Positions 5,854 to 25,814 of a DNA stretch of 26,790 nt are shown here, piece after piece (positions within the stretch are counted from its first letter, which is position 1; every line of letters starts with the position of its first letter). Under the pieces are notes generated by a model that saw only the letters and a list, made by a program, of their open reading frames with translations, had not been told where the DNA came from and did no database searches. Origin of the DNA: a virus; the IMG/VR virus record IMGVR_UViG_3300025671_000421, positions 1-26,790 of that record, one strand, 5' to 3'. A program made the translations under genes and the position numbers.

Positions 5854-6208
5854 ATTACCAAAACTCTACACGGATGCAGAGGCCGCGAAGCTGCTGGATG
5901 TGAGCAAAAGCACGGTCAAGCGGTTGCGGCTGTCGGGGCAGATTGGCTCCATCAAGATAAGCCCGCGCAAACCACGGATTCGGAGTGACCAATTACAACA
6001 ATACATTGAAGATATGAGGGTTGACCCATGCCCGAAAGATTCCAGATCGGAGACTACTGGCTCTCAAAGAGGAAAGGCCGCAAGTTCTGGCACAGAACGT
6101 GGTTCGACCAGAAAACTAGACAGACGCGCAGGGAGTCACTTGGTACAGAATCTTACGAAACCGCCAAGAAAGCCCTTGCGGAGTGGTACGCCAAGCACGG
6201 CGAGTTAA
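5846..6208 (+). CDS. xis: Excisionase-type MerR-like HTH protein
   Basis: The first about 60 residues are a winged-helix DNA-binding domain of the excisionase/HTH_17 type: LYTDAEAAKLLDVSKSTVKRL (residues 7-27, minus one residue) then the wing and a helix (RIRSDQLQQYIEDM). Such proteins bend attachment-site DNA and bias the integrase towards excision, or act as regulators. The gene lies directly upstream of the integrase, as expected for xis. The frame continues to 120 residues, but the part after residue 60 is basic and low in complexity and overlaps the integrase by 181 bp in another frame. The extra tail may be a by-product of overlap rather than a folded domain. Confidence 0.75.
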   Translation: MIELPKLYTDAEAAKLLDVSKSTVKRLRLSGQIGSIKISPRKPRIRSDQLQQYIEDMRVDPCPKDSRSETTGSQRGKAASSGTERGSTRKLDRRAGSHLVQNLTKPPRKPLRSGTPSTAS

Positions 6209-7113
6209 GGAAGGAAGCCCCGGAGTCGGTGCTTCTGGATGAACTGCTGGCACGGTACTACGAAGGCCACGCGATACAGACCGCGAGTGCCGAGCAAGCC
6301 TATTACGCGATTCAAAGGCTCTCCGCGATGCTTGAGGGCATCACCGTGGCAGAGTTCGACCACGCAGAACAAACCCGCTTCATCACCGAGTGCCGCGATG
6401 AGGGGCTGTCAGACGGGTATATCAGCCGCACGCTCACCGTGGCGAGAGCCGCGATAAACAGGGCATACAAGCGTGGAGAATTGGCCTCTGCCCCATTTGT
6501 GATGTCAGCAGGGGAAAGCCCCGCGAGGGACAGGGTGCTGTCTGCGGAGGAAATGGTCGCATTTCTGAGCGCGATTGATCGCCCTGTTATCGCCCATTTC
6601 TGCCTGTGGAGCCTCAATACCACAGCAAGGCCGAGCGCCATTCTGGAGCTAAAGCATTTTCAGGTGGACAGTCGGGCGGGATTCGTTGCCCTCAACCCCC
6701 CAGGGAGGAAGCAAACCAAGAAGCACCGCCCCACCGTTCCCCTCACGGACTCCATGCGGGCGCTATACAGCCGTTTTAACGGCTCCGAATACGTCATAGG
6801 CAAGCGCCTACAATCCGTCAAAACGCCCTTTAGGACGCTCTCACGGCGCTCTGGCGTGGACAGGGTGACACCCTACACGTTACGGCATACGATGGGGGCA
6901 GAATTACGGGCGAGAGGGGTTCCCGCATGGGAAGCTGCGGGCATCATGGGTCACAAGATCGGGGGAACTACAGAGATCTATGCCAAATACGCCCCGGACT
7001 ATCTCAGCCACGCACGACAGGCGATTGATGCCTATATGGGTGAAATCCTGCCGCACGTTGCATGGGTCGAGGGGTGGCACGCAGATGGCACGCACGGCGC
7101 GGTAAGTCTTTGA
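6028..7113 (+). CDS. int: Tyrosine-recombinase integrase
   Basis: A 361-residue site-specific tyrosine recombinase that would integrate the phage at a tRNA-Val gene. An N-terminal arm-binding region (residues about 1-60) is followed by a core-binding domain (about 65-160) and the catalytic domain. Active-site residues: R201 (NTTARPSAIL), Y283-T-L-R286 (PYTLRHTMG, with tyrosine in the usual His position), H309 (IMGHK) and the nucleophile Y318 (GTTEIYAKY). ATG 6028 has GAGGG seven bases upstream. The last codons contain two arm-type repeats, which forces the odd C-terminus WHADGTHGA. attP follows within 70 bp. The gene points towards attP, so its transcript crosses the core. Confidence 0.95.
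   Translation: MPERFQIGDYWLSKRKGRKFWHRTWFDQKTRQTRRESLGTESYETAKKALAEWYAKHGELRKEAPESVLLDELLARYYEGHAIQTASAEQAYYAIQRLSAMLEGITVAEFDHAEQTRFITECRDEGLSDGYISRTLTVARAAINRAYKRGELASAPFVMSAGESPARDRVLSAEEMVAFLSAIDRPVIAHFCLWSLNTTARPSAILELKHFQVDSRAGFVALNPPGRKQTKKHRPTVPLTDSMRALYSRFNGSEYVIGKRLQSVKTPFRTLSRRSGVDRVTPYTLRHTMGAELRARGVPAWEAAGIMGHKIGGTTEIYAKYAPDYLSHARQAIDAYMGEILPHVAWVEGWHADGTHGAVSL
7075..7094 (+). repeat. Integrase arm-type sites, left pair
   Basis: Two copies of TGGCACGCA at 7075-7083 and 7086-7094, start-to-start 11 bp, within the last codons of int. The same pair with the same spacing and orientation is at 7272-7291, on the other side of the tRNA core. Paired 9-bp direct repeats flanking the crossover region are what arm-type integrase sites look like. 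The motif is not seen elsewhere in the attachment region. Confidence 0.8.
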
Positions 7114-7175: not shown

Positions 7176-7223
7176 ACCTTGACATGGTAGGGGTCGGCAG
7201 TTCAATCCTGCCCGCGCCTACCA
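7176..7223 (+). other. attP core: 3' half of tRNA-Val(GAC)
   Basis: The segment holds the anticodon loop TTGACAT between ACC and GGT (anticodon GAC), the variable loop, a T arm with stem GGCAG (7196-7200)/CTGCC (7208-7212) and loop TTCAATC, the acceptor 3' strand CGCGCCT (7213-7219), discriminator A and CCA (7221-7223). The 5' half of a tRNA is missing upstream, so this is not a functional gene. Phages that integrate into tRNA genes carry exactly such a 3' fragment to restore the gene after insertion. The position just after int and between arm sites supports attP. Confidence 0.85.
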
Positions 7224-21647: not shown

Positions 21648-22721
21648 TTAAGCGTCAGCAGGCGAAGAAGTCCAGACGGTTACAACACCGTTGTCCTTCA
21701 GATCGTCCGTATCAGCGGAGCCTGAGCCAAAGGTCAGTTTCTCAATGCCGCGAATTTCTTCGATAGCAACGCCCTGCTTATCACCGTAGTCGAAGGTTTC
21801 CTGCTTCGACGTAGTGCGCTTGGCCCAACCCATGCCGACAGCCTGTGCACCGCAAAGGAACGCGGGAGCAATCGGGGCCGATGCAGCGCCAGAGTTCTCC
21901 ACAAGACTGTTCATGTCGGAGATGTGGCGAACAATCACGCCATCCCAAAGGATTGACTCACCCGAAAAGATCGGGTTCTCCTTGCCGCGAACATTTGCAT
22001 CAGTGTTCGAGGCTTTGAGGTCAACCTTAAGGTCGCGGTACTGCTGCGAGTTGACGAACATCACATACCACTCTTCGTCACCGTTCACCGTCACCGGACG
22101 GATTTTCGGGTCAGCAGAGAGGGCAATGCGCTTCGCCAACGAAACGATGTCACCACTCAGCGTCATACCAGCGGTAACTGCGGCAAGGTCGGTCGCATGA
22201 GTCGTGTAACCACCGTTACCAATCGCATCACCGAACAGAACGCGGTCAGCGTTGTCCACCAGCCAAGCATTACGCGCAGCAGCATTAGCCGACCCGTAAG
22301 CCGTGCCGTTGATGCTGTGGAGGGCGGCGATGATGTCATCGCGGGTCTGCTCCATAATCCACGTTTTCAGCGTGGCGCGGGCTGCGTTACGGAGAGAGAT
22401 AGCGGAACGCTGTTCCTCCATTTCAGCAACCAGAACACCGTTACGAATCTTGTCAACGGTCAACTGGTGAGAGCGCGAGGCCAAATCTTCCTCTGAACCT
22501 TCCAGAGAAGTCGTGCCAGTAACGCCAGCACCCGTCAGGCGGTTGACAAGCGCATAAGTCAGGCTGTCGCCCTTCTTCTTCGTCAGGTCTTGCTTAACCT
22601 GGATGATGGAGTTTTCGTTGGTGCCAAAATACTTGGCAAAGCGGTTAGCCTGGACGTATTCAGTAAAGAACTTATCGTCCCACTGCTGAACAGTAAGGCC
22701 GGTTGCGGCTGTGGTAGCCAT
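21648..22721 (-). CDS. Major capsid protein (DUF4043 / N4-gp56 type)
   Basis: A 357-residue major head protein. The N-terminal start (TVQQWDDKFFTEYVQANRFA) and IIQVKQDLTKKKGDSLTYAL with VNRLTG, then GSEEDLASRSHQLTVDKIRN and WYVMFVNSQQYRDLKVD match the DUF4043/N4-gp56 capsid family, a HK97-fold group seen in many podoviruses. ATG 22721 has GAGG upstream on the minus strand. It follows a scaffold gene, as expected. It differs in type from the P22 gp5 coat, although the gene order is P22-like. Confidence 0.9.
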   Translation of the reverse strand: MATTAATGLTVQQWDDKFFTEYVQANRFAKYFGTNENSIIQVKQDLTKKKGDSLTYALVNRLTGAGVTGTTSLEGSEEDLASRSHQLTVDKIRNGVLVAEMEEQRSAISLRNAARATLKTWIMEQTRDDIIAALHSINGTAYGSANAAARNAWLVDNADRVLFGDAIGNGGYTTHATDLAAVTAGMTLSGDIVSLAKRIALSADPKIRPVTVNGDEEWYVMFVNSQQYRDLKVDLKASNTDANVRGKENPIFSGESILWDGVIVRHISDMNSLVENSGAASAPIAPAFLCGAQAVGMGWAKRTTSKQETFDYGDKQGVAIEEIRGIEKLTFGSGSADTDDLKDNGVVTVWTSSPADA

Positions 22722-22732
22722 AATGAATTACC

Positions 22733-23527
22733 TCAAAAATTATTGAACATGGATTCAAGGGGCGTCTGAGTCGGCTCTTTGTCCGTCCTCTGAGTCGCCC
22801 CCGTTACGGTTGAGAGCGATTCGGGAACGTCTGCCGCACGACTCGCCGGGGTAGGGTTCTTTTGCAGGTATTCAGCGACCGCAGCCTCACGCTGTTGCTG
22901 GACAAAGGCGTCAAAGTCGCCACCAGCCGCGTTAATCTGCGCTAACCGTTTACCCAATCTATAGGCGTATTCCGCAGGGTTGGAAGCCTGTGCAGCTTCC
23001 ATCTGCAATGCCGAATTGTGCTGTGCTGCTTGGGCAAAGAACTGAATCGCCTCGTCATAGTCGGGATGACTTTCCTTAGCGATGCGCTCAAAGTCTTGCA
23101 GCCGTTGTAGGCTGTTCTGGTACTGAATCTCTTGAAGGCGCTGCTCGTACTTCGCCTCCAGGTTGTTTGCCCACTTTTCCGGGTCGTCGAGGAAGTCAAC
23201 AGGCTCCTCCACTTTTTCCGGTTCAGTGGGCTGATTCAGTTGCGTGAAACGGCCATTAAGTTCGTCAATCTGACGTTGCAACTCTTGGCGCTTGCTACGC
23301 TCATCCAGTAAAGCCGTTTGGGGCACAAACCCTTCCGGCGGCCTCTCTGGTTCTGATGCTGGCGGCTCATCAGGGGTTTCGGCTTCCGCTTCAACCTGTT
23401 TTTCGCCCTCAGACTCTTGTGGTGCATCCTCAGTTTCGGCAACAGCCTCTACTTCGGGGGTTTCAGCAACAGACTCCGAAGGAACCTCACCACTCAAAAT
23501 CTCATCCAAAGATGCTTCTTCGTTCAC
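22733..23527 (-). CDS. Scaffolding protein
   Basis: A 264-residue protein, very acidic in the first half (Glu/Pro-rich; SESVAETPEVEAVAETEDAP) then helical with coiled-coil stretches (RSKRQELQRQIDELNGRF, NNLEAKYEQRLQEIQYQNSL), and with a short C-terminal segment. This composition and the position just before the capsid gene are typical of podoviral scaffolds, which direct procapsid assembly and are then lost. Start is GTG 23527, with AAGGAG seven bases upstream. It follows a terminator at 23619-23641, so it needs read-through or its own promoter. Confidence 0.82.
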   Translation of the reverse strand: MNEEASLDEILSGEVPSESVAETPEVEAVAETEDAPQESEGEKQVEAEAETPDEPPASEPERPPEGFVPQTALLDERSKRQELQRQIDELNGRFTQLNQPTEPEKVEEPVDFLDDPEKWANNLEAKYEQRLQEIQYQNSLQRLQDFERIAKESHPDYDEAIQFFAQAAQHNSALQMEAAQASNPAEYAYRLGKRLAQINAAGGDFDAFVQQQREAAVAEYLQKNPTPASRAADVPESLSTVTGATQRTDKEPTQTPLESMFNNF

Positions 23528-23650: not shown

Positions 23651-23715
23651 TGGTGGACTTGGTGGGACTCGCACCCACATCCGCGACTAGCGCCGCGTCG
23701 AATCTAATCAAGCCC
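23651..23715 (-). ncRNA. Tag-less miniature tmRNA-like RNA (tRNA-like domain only)
   Basis: A 65-nt element with acceptor stem GGGCTTG/CAAGTCC (7 bp, with G3-U70 wobble in tRNA numbering), discriminator A and encoded CCA (23653-23651). The T arm is GTGGG/CCCAC with loop TGCGAGT. In place of a D arm it has ATTAGATTCGACG, which matches the conserved tmRNA 5' block (TGGATTCGACG in most bacteria) in 10 of 11 positions. A short stem CGCG/CGCG with loop GCGCTAGT stands where tmRNA has helix 2, the pseudoknots and tag frame. The 3' part (GGATGTGGGTGCGAGTCCCA, CCAAGTCCACCA) also fits tmRNA 3' ends. G3-U70 and A73 are the alanine identity elements read by alanyl-tRNA synthetase. It starts at the last base of the previous stop codon and a terminator follows. 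It has no tag reading frame. Function unknown; a decoy for SmpB/alanyl-tRNA synthetase or a modulator of trans-translation are hypotheses. Confidence 0.75.
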
Positions 23716-23858
23716 TAGAAATGGACTTCCAGGCAGTAGTTCAGGAAGTAGATAAACACCGCCCACTTGTGAGTGCGGCGACCCCAGTTATCGTCGTAGA
23801 TCGAAACAGTCGGAAACAGGAAAAACTCCGTTTCAGACTTCTCGACCGCTGTTCTCAT
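23715..23858 (-). CDS. 47-residue protein upstream of the tmRNA-like RNA
   Basis: ATG 23858 overlaps the previous stop as ATGA. The product begins polar (MRTAVEKSETEFFLFPTVSI), has IYDDNWGRRTHKW in the middle and an aromatic hydrophobic end (AVFIYFLNYCLEVHF). The TAG stop ends exactly on the first base of the RNA element, so processing of that RNA would cut the mRNA at the end of this gene. Not recognised. Confidence 0.5.
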   Translation of the reverse strand: MRTAVEKSETEFFLFPTVSIYDDNWGRRTHKWAVFIYFLNYCLEVHF

Positions 23859-24052
23859 ATCGCTTCAGACACTTCCACAAGACCGGCAGAAAACAAGCGC
23901 CGATGCACTCGCGGCCCGACTACCACGGAGCCGCCATCCTTGAGCCGCACCAGATAGAGCCGTCCGTGGCCTTTTAGGTATACCCGGTGAACGTGAATAG
24001 CCGCATAAACAACTGCGCCCGTCACAATCGCGGAGAAAAACAGACTAAGCAT
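23855..24052 (-). CDS. Small membrane protein after portal
   Basis: A 65-residue protein that overlaps the portal gene end by 8 bp and is ATGA-coupled to the next. The N-terminus is a membrane helix (LSLFFSAIVTGAVVYAAIHV, residues 2-21); the rest is basic with beta character (GRLYLVRLKDGGSVVVGPRV). No family recognised. The location in the packaging operon is unusual for a membrane protein. Confidence 0.6.
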   Translation of the reverse strand: MLSLFFSAIVTGAVVYAAIHVHRVYLKGHGRLYLVRLKDGGSVVVGPRVHRRLFSAGLVEVSEAI

Positions 24053-25814
24053 CCTGGGCTAATCCATACAGGCCAGCCTTGCCAGCCATGTTCTCAATCT
24101 CGGTCTGCTCGGCTTCCGCGTTGTATTTACGCGCCTGCGCCATGTCCTTCTCAATCTCCGCCATCCGTTCCTGCATCGCAGTCATTTGCTCCTGCTGCAT
24201 CATGGCAGCGGCTTCGGGGTTATCACCACCCGTAAGTTTCTCAACGAGCGCCGACTTGTTCCGCAAGGAACTGGCTTCCAAGTAAACTTCTGGCGGGAAC
24301 ACCACACCGGCCTGCGCAAGGGAAACAAGGTTCTGGAACTGCTCAGCTTGCAGGTTAATCACATCCGGCGATTCGTCGATGATGATGTCCACATCCAACT
24401 CGGTCACATCATTGCGCTTGCCGACGATTGCGTTGGGGTTGGGCAGGAAACGCGGGTCTACACCCATCATTTCAGCCTGTTCCGCAGCAGTCACAGGTGC
24501 ATTAAGCTGCGCGAACTTCGCCCTGCCCTCATCGTCACGCACCCGCACCCACTTCTCATCCGTCCAGAACTGCTGGACGCGATGCCAGATTTTGCGGTAG
24601 ATCGTGCGCTTCAGCGCCCGTATCTGGTCGAACTGCCGCCCAACCTCAATGAAGTCCAACTGCTGACCGACAATCTTGGAGCGACCAGAGGCGCTAGAAG
24701 CCGCATCAGCGGCACTCGGACTGACAGAGGACAACGAACCACGCGCATCAGCCAGTAATTGCGCCTGACCGGCTGCAAGGTCATTGTTCTTCTCAATGTC
24801 GAACCGCGTACCCGGAACAATCTCAATCACGCCGTCAGGACGGTTAGCCTCGCGCCGCGCAACCTTCACAGACTGCACCGCACCAGTCTCCATAATCACC
24901 TGATTGGTGTTCAGGATGTGCAACGCCTTAGAGCGGCGATGGTTAACCTCGTCCTGAAGGTCTTTGTAGCGCCGCACAATGCCGTAACGTGCGCCGTCAC
25001 GGTCTACATAGGCCGACATCCAGCAATAGGGGTCATCCGTTTCGCCCTCTGCGTTGTACGCCGACAGGCTCGGCTTCTCAATCCATTGGCCTTTAACGAA
25101 CTTGCAGGAATACCACTCGCCGCCCTTGATGTAATACTGCTCAACAATACGCACACGCTTACGCTGAGTGTCGTACCAGCGAGTACGGGGCTTGTCATCC
25201 GATGTCTCAAAGGCTGACCGAGACTGATCGCTCGCAATGCCGGAAAAATCCACATCCGGCCAGCGGCTCTGCGCGTCCTCAACATCCAGCCAAACAAACG
25301 TGCCGCGATAACGTGCGTCAGAAAAGTCCTTTTTGACCGAATGAGGGTCAAAGTAAGTCCTGTCCCACGGATTCAGAATTACCCGTATTTCTACGTCATC
25401 ACCCTTCGGCCTTGCGACAACCTCACAGCCACCATAGCCCTCAACGAACATATGCTCGGCAATGTCCGAGACAACCTGGTCAATGTCGTTATTCTCACCG
25501 ACATAGCGGAGCGCGTCCGTAGCGGCCTCGGCAGCGTCATCGTCTTGCGGGGTTCTGGGGTACGCCTTCGGGTCTGAGCGTGACTGCACCTCCATGCCGA
25601 TAAGAGTCTCAATCTTATCCTTCAGCATATTGTCAGTGACGCACGGCTGGCGGCGCGCTTTCAGTTCGTTGCGCTCTTCCGCAGTCCACTGCACACCGTC
25701 GAAATAGTCGCGGGCAGTCTCAGCCTCGTCGCGATAGTCAACAGTCGCCTGTTCAGCGGCCTCAAAGTTCTGACATACCCATGTCAGCAAGTCTGTATTG
25801 TCTTTTTCAGCCAC
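24045..25814 (-). CDS. Portal protein (P22-like)
   Basis: A 589-residue portal that forms the dodecameric channel for DNA. The N-terminus has ARDYFDGVQWTAEERNELKA and RRQPCVTDNMLKDKIETLIG, classic for the P22-like portal family, then IDQVVSDIAEHMFVEGYGGC, AYVDRDGARYGIVRRYKDLQ, DEVNHRRSKALHILNTNQ and a C-terminal coiled-coil rich in Met, Gln and Glu (MQERMAEIEKDMAQARKYNA), matching the barrel seen in P22. GTG 25814 with AGGG upstream is the start. It follows terminase by 12 bp. Confidence 0.92.
   Translation of the reverse strand: MAEKDNTDLLTWVCQNFEAAEQATVDYRDEAETARDYFDGVQWTAEERNELKARRQPCVTDNMLKDKIETLIGMEVQSRSDPKAYPRTPQDDDAAEAATDALRYVGENNDIDQVVSDIAEHMFVEGYGGCEVVARPKGDDVEIRVILNPWDRTYFDPHSVKKDFSDARYRGTFVWLDVEDAQSRWPDVDFSGIASDQSRSAFETSDDKPRTRWYDTQRKRVRIVEQYYIKGGEWYSCKFVKGQWIEKPSLSAYNAEGETDDPYCWMSAYVDRDGARYGIVRRYKDLQDEVNHRRSKALHILNTNQVIMETGAVQSVKVARREANRPDGVIEIVPGTRFDIEKNNDLAAGQAQLLADARGSLSSVSPSAADAASSASGRSKIVGQQLDFIEVGRQFDQIRALKRTIYRKIWHRVQQFWTDEKWVRVRDDEGRAKFAQLNAPVTAAEQAEMMGVDPRFLPNPNAIVGKRNDVTELDVDIIIDESPDVINLQAEQFQNLVSLAQAGVVFPPEVYLEASSLRNKSALVEKLTGGDNPEAAAMMQQEQMTAMQERMAEIEKDMAQARKYNAEAEQTEIENMAGKAGLYGLAQDA

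Follow-up and report, generated by a model that had tools for sequence, protein, structure and literature searches.

A tag-less tmRNA of 65 nucleotides in a viral contig and its relatives in other phages

Why would a virus carry, next to its portal gene, a short RNA that resembles the two ends of a transfer-messenger RNA (tmRNA) joined together without a message between them? The question is raised by positions 1 to 26,790 of the IMG/VR virus record IMGVR_UViG_3300025671_000421; this whole stretch of 26,790 nucleotides is called the window here. An earlier note on this DNA, made from the sequence alone, proposed a tag-less miniature tmRNA of 65 nt on the minus strand at 23651-23715, and the sequence and the coordinates that it gave are exact. 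Our analysis indicates that the element is almost certainly a phage-encoded tmRNA that is reduced to its tRNA-like domain (TLD).

Anatomy of the 65-nt element

Read 5' to 3' on the minus strand, the RNA begins with the 5' strand of the acceptor stem, GGGCTTG (23709-23715, with G3 at 23713), all seven bases of which pair with the 3' strand, CAAGTCC (23655-23661, with U70 at 23657). The D-loop spacer ATTAGA (23703-23708, with A18 at 23705) leads into TTCGA (23698-23702), which is part of the tmRNA block GATTCGACG and matches the Rfam tmRNA consensus. It is followed by the P2 hairpin CGCGGC-GCTA-GTCGCG (23682-23697), the bases GAT, the T arm GTGGG-TGCGAGT-CCCAC (23662-23678 in the Rfam alignment, with G55 at 23672), the 3' acceptor strand and, finally, the discriminator A73 with an encoded CCA (23651-23654). 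The predicted fold consists of the acceptor stem, the P2 hairpin and the T arm.

The element is a complete tmRNA TLD in which the 16-nt P2 hairpin joins the 5' and 3' halves. It retains G1-C72, G2-C71, G3-U70, A73-CCA, the GATTCGACG block and the T arm; in place of the mRNA-like domain and the pseudoknots it has a 6-bp stem with a 4-nt loop, and not the 8-nt loop of the earlier note. The G3-U70 pair, A73 and CCA claimed there are all in the sequence. The GTGGG/CCCAC stem of the T arm is also as described, but it had been overlooked that the T-loop, TGCGAGT, departs from the tmRNA motif TTCRANT by a G in place of U55, a variant that also occurs in permuted tmRNAs of phages. The D-loop block GGATTCGACG, which has no D stem, is present as AGATTCGACG with one change, G18 to A18.

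The Rfam tmRNA model RF00023 aligns to the RNA from end to end, from model position 1 to 374, with 32.4 bits and an E value of 8.9e-12 (221 bases searched). The 312 model positions that are absent correspond to the whole mRNA-like domain and pseudoknots PK1-PK4, and no mRNA-like domain with a resume codon and a tag is present in the RNA in this alignment. Without the mRNA-like domain, the score stays under Rfam's curated 47 bits. Our own TLD-only model, R1, gave 59 bits (E 6e-10 over 685 kb), a value that is not independent as the window RNA is among the 32 training rows. The earlier note had also asked whether an ordinary degenerate tRNA would describe the element better. ARAGORN called neither a tRNA nor a tmRNA in the window, and there was no tRNA family among the Rfam matches to the RNA up to E 10. 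The canonical tRNA features, that is an anticodon arm, a D stem and a call by a tRNA finder, are all missing.

Relatives in viruses and their conserved features

Patterns composed of the TTCGAC block, the T-loop and the 3' end, without any demand for pairing, were run against 2.9 million viral contigs of IMG/VR. The scans resulted in 96 distinct TLD-only elements in 148 loci, or 145 without duplicate loci; one is located in a bacterial metagenome-assembled genome (MAG), and about 144 viral contigs remain. The elements are about 60 to 97 nt long and have 21 distinct acceptor stems. A simple P2 hairpin is found in the window RNA, in a group with the acceptor GGGGGAA and in a GGGTAGC group; in other members P2 contains an inner loop and a hairpin. 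The genes near class members encode terminase, protease, tape measure protein, helicase, primase and ribonucleotide reductase, and tRNA genes are found there too; several of the GGGGGAA members are directly upstream of terminase. Nine pattern matches were discarded as tRNA overlaps, permuted tmRNAs, att sites or contig ends (L005, L011, L032, L034, L035, L043, L193, L214, L366).

Some variation within the collection was also seen. In ten larger members (L015, L050, L053, L161, L391, L405, L408, L438, L442, L452) P2 contains a small hairpin and an internal loop rich in A, often with (U)AAA-GCC. Another group (L387, L389, L395, L397, L420 and kin) has C55 in its T-loop (TCCGATT) and often lies shortly before an ATG. 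For the TLD-only elements L036, L049, L410 and L469, ARAGORN gives either a tRNA-Glu or a tmRNA with a spurious tag. The viral contigs also abound in permuted two-piece tmRNAs (L265-L373), and many of these have G55/A18 loops.

When the window element and seven other representatives of the class were compared by BLAST with 50,697 phage records, only one of the matches examined proved to be TLD-only, that in the cultured Streptomyces phage BRock. The others were mostly tRNAs, tmRNAs in permuted or full-length form, or an ssrA attachment site. The BRock element (KX925554.1, L469 1494-1574) is unannotated, lies in a tRNA cluster and scores 64.5 bits with RF00023. Its acceptor, GGGTTTG/CAAATCC, is unique and includes G3-U70; CCA is not encoded.

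Of the 26 matches that the same pattern had among 84,980 genomes of bacteria and archaea, only one is TLD-only. The other 25, from Nocardioides and others, failed the 5' acceptor test, and the 10 of them that were run through ARAGORN were the 3' ends of full-length tmRNAs. The contig of the single TLD-only copy (L161, 4765-4844) carries phage-family genes and belongs to a Bacillota MAG, which also has a full-length tmRNA. The tmRNA model was run on 19 phage records, which may be fragments; it matched 18 of them and found a full-length tmRNA in none, and 16 exceed Rfam's own tmRNA cut-off on the TLD alone. An SmpB gene was found in none of the 20 phage records checked, which again may be fragments.

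Next we consider the pairing. The U70 pattern, which did not require pairing, had 31 unique matches. At least 6 of 7 acceptor pairs form at the expected distance in 28 of them, compared with 24% of shuffles, and all of the first four P2 pairs form in 26, compared with 8%. A pattern that excluded the commonest second P2 base still found the acceptor in 83 of 88 matches and the four P2 pairs in 82 of 88, with other pairs substituted. Changes on both sides occur in 11 of 17 pairs in alignment A1 (32 aligned rows); in this alignment the P2 loops are truncated and the rows were pre-filtered for pairing, so that the unfiltered pairing tests carry the weight. Across the class, covariation in the acceptor, P2 and T stems is strong. 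The earlier note had named a lack of conservation or covariation in relatives among the findings that would refute its proposal; the pattern scans and pairing tests show both, with compensatory changes in other phages.

The first three pairs of the acceptor, G1-C72, G2-C71 and G3-U70, are invariant in 96 of 96 elements. Most patterns demanded TCC in the 3' strand and the census demanded GGG; U70 was therefore checked separately. When positions 66-72 were left free in the first pattern, all of the 12 unique elements with pairing had U70. Furthermore, 51 viral contigs matched with U at position 70 and none when A, C or G was demanded there. G3-U70 together with A73 is the recognition key of alanyl-tRNA synthetase (AlaRS) (PMC3968760). 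The fact that U70 is kept while acceptor positions 4-7 vary freely points to charging.

The elbow between the D- and T-loops also covaries. The D-loop has AG instead of GG, that is A18, in 32 of 32 G55 elements and in 0 of 64 elements with U55 or C55, although these counts are inflated by shared ancestry. In the permuted tmRNAs of phages, G55 goes with A18 in 91 of 98 cases and U55 with G18 in 35 of 36. The same loops, with AG in the D-loop and G at position 55, are seen in the Rfam alphaproteobacterial consensus and in the permuted tmRNA of a Caulobacter phage (CcrSC). A search of the literature found nothing specific on A18-G55 pairs. Because the A18/G55 signature is common to permuted tmRNAs, the window RNA may come from a two-piece tmRNA, the halves of which were rejoined in linear order.

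Genomic surroundings

The neighbours of the RNA are on the same minus strand. Upstream is the portal protein gene (24045-25814; PHROG 156, E 3e-92); downstream are the gene of a 264-aa protein (22733-23527) and the major capsid protein gene (21648-22721; PHROG 334, E 6e-79). The placement between portal and scaffold in the earlier note is correct for the portal, but the 264-aa protein has no PHROG match and is a scaffold by position only. Directly upstream of the RNA is a small open reading frame of 47 aa (23715-23858, minus strand), and the G of its TAG stop is G1 of the RNA. A terminator-like hairpin, GAACCCGC-TTCT-GCGGGTTT plus a T run, occupies 23642-23623 on the minus strand; it was anticipated in the earlier note, but starts 8 nt beyond the CCA and not 9 (one match, against 0.7 expected by chance). 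The integrase gene (6028-7113) has right behind it a fragment like a tRNA 3' end (GGCAG-TTCAATC-CTGCC, CGCGCCT-ACCA) at 7185-7222, which is the probable attP in a tRNA gene.

Downstream of the RNA, a near-twin contig (L008/L057) matches the window at 99.7% identity over 14.3 kb. When window positions 23651-23923 are compared with L057, the divergence begins just upstream of the miniature tmRNA, which marks a mosaic boundary at the RNA. The two RNAs differ only at three D-loop spacer bases (ATT/CCT). A search of capsid relatives (80 loci) with the TLD-only model found the RNA only in this near-twin; a second twin (L056) stops short of the site. The relatives without the RNA point to its acquisition as an accessory in the lineage of the window.

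Possible action and relation to known tmRNAs

We favour the view, with a probability of about 0.55 for identity and mechanism together, that the window element is a phage TLD-only tmRNA acting as a charged decoy against trans-translation. We infer that the RNA is transcribed as part of a late operon, that RNase P cuts its 5' end at G1 and that trimming leaves CCA at the 3' end. Host AlaRS would then add alanine through G3-U70 and A73, and host SmpB and EF-Tu would bind the charged TLD, which would compete with host tmRNA for SmpB and stalled ribosomes. Because the TLD RNA has no resume codon, the ribosome would not switch to a tag, and trans-translation (tagging, proteolysis and nonstop-mRNA decay) would be blocked during infection.

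By analogy with a published precedent, action of the window RNA as a decoy or inhibitor is plausible. A TLD-only tmRNA has been described from mycobacteriophage DS6A (Mao et al. 2009, cited in PMC4131195 and PMC11915505), and these two articles report that tmRNA in E. coli is strongly inhibited by a DS6A-like molecule, whether or not it can be charged; titration of SmpB may be the cause. The idea of a TLD-only phage tmRNA in the earlier note is thus not new. For the class as a whole we see even odds that tag-less tmRNAs are a widespread, phage-specific class, spanning many lineages, under selection for alanine charging and the tRNA elbow. Once charged, they would act as counter-rescue RNAs: on entering stalled ribosomes they would shift host trans-translation to a phage-controlled, tag-free outcome.

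Several observations weigh against a charged decoy. Inhibition by the similar RNA was reportedly independent of charging, although a simple SmpB sponge leaves the invariant G3-U70 unexplained. G55 eliminates the residue that TruB converts to pseudouridine. Capsid relatives at 47-60% identity are without the RNA. Finally, the gene context varies between members, which makes the timing uncertain: the gene position in the window agrees with the late infection proposed in the earlier note, but it is the sole basis for it, and other members are near helicase, primase or tRNA genes.

The RNA could instead be an active, tag-less rescue RNA, which we consider rather unlikely. Ala-TLD with SmpB and EF-Tu would enter the stalled ribosome and take over the nascent chain, and another factor would release the peptidyl-TLD, so that ribosomes are freed while phage proteins are left untagged and are not destroyed. 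Mitochondrial tmRNAs without a tag are thought to aid rescue in some comparable way. The invariant alanine identity and the conserved D/T elbow suggest that charging and ribosome entry are likely to be selected, beyond the needs of a sponge, and mitochondrial tmRNAs without a tag frame persist alongside SmpB (PMC11915505). However, the release step is a supposition, and the similar RNA is reported to be an inhibitor of tmRNA in E. coli (PMC4131195).

The published inhibition by the DS6A-like RNA, independent of its capacity for charging (PMC4131195), would fit an RNA that only titrates SmpB and needs neither charging nor ribosome entry. We regard this as improbable, since such a sponge would allow drift at position 70, whereas G3-U70 is universal, no element with A, C or G at 70 was found, and acceptor positions 4-7 are free. 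The tight fit between genes, with the 5' end overlapping a stop codon and the terminator-like hairpin behind, could also mean that the tRNA-like fold is a target of RNase P and tRNase that trims the phage mRNA between the portal and the downstream genes and has no role in trans-translation. This is very doubtful, because the TTCGACG block, G3-U70 and the missing anticodon arm are not needed for processing, and gene contexts and downstream sequences vary among members. An ssrA attachment-site remnant or a decaying captured tmRNA, to which the integrase of the window phage and the use of ssrA by prophages (L261; PMC9004378) might lead, is hardly credible, as the earlier note had argued for the remnant: both tmRNA halves are present and paired, the class covaries, the tRNA fragment behind the integrase, 16 kb off, is a better attP candidate, and a full tmRNA is kept in 0 of the 18 phage records with a match.

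The preferred reading, a TLD-only tmRNA acting as a charged decoy, can be set beside known systems. DS6A likewise has a phage-encoded tmRNA reduced to the TLD; it belongs to a different phage group, and the likeness is drawn from the published description. Set beside it, the window RNA has the A18-G55 loop pair and the 16-nt P2 hairpin. Full-length tmRNA (ssrA, RF00023), well known from phages (PMC9004378), has in common with the window RNA the TLD anatomy, G3-U70, A73, CCA, the TTCGACG block and the D/T-loop contact, but its mRNA-like domain, tag and pseudoknots are all missing here. The two-piece permuted tmRNAs of Alphaproteobacteria and marine phages (RF01849, RF04321) have the A18/G55 D/T-loop signature, whereas the window RNA has linear order, one piece and no coding piece. 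The TLD is kept and the tag frame lost, as in the window RNA, in tag-less mitochondrial tmRNAs (RF02544) and in two plastid tmRNAs of Mallomonadaceae of about 65 bp (PMC11915505). These differ in that they are organelle genes, the mitochondrial ones are usually permuted, and their partner is an organelle-targeted SmpB.

The kind of RNA is therefore already known. The breadth of the class, its conserved alanine identity and the loop covariation are new; none of these, nor the restriction to phages, was found in the literature searched. Among the papers found only DS6A is on record, and 96 members in about 144 viral contigs turn a curiosity into a class, with at least one member in a cultured phage (BRock). 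Standard annotation largely misses this class, as ARAGORN gives nothing, a spurious tmRNA or a tRNA. Because such RNAs are found in many phage contigs and in hardly any bacterial chromosome, they are probably a phage tool for jamming or bypassing host ribosome rescue. Whether phages fight or redirect bacterial ribosome rescue by means of RNA is now a testable question.
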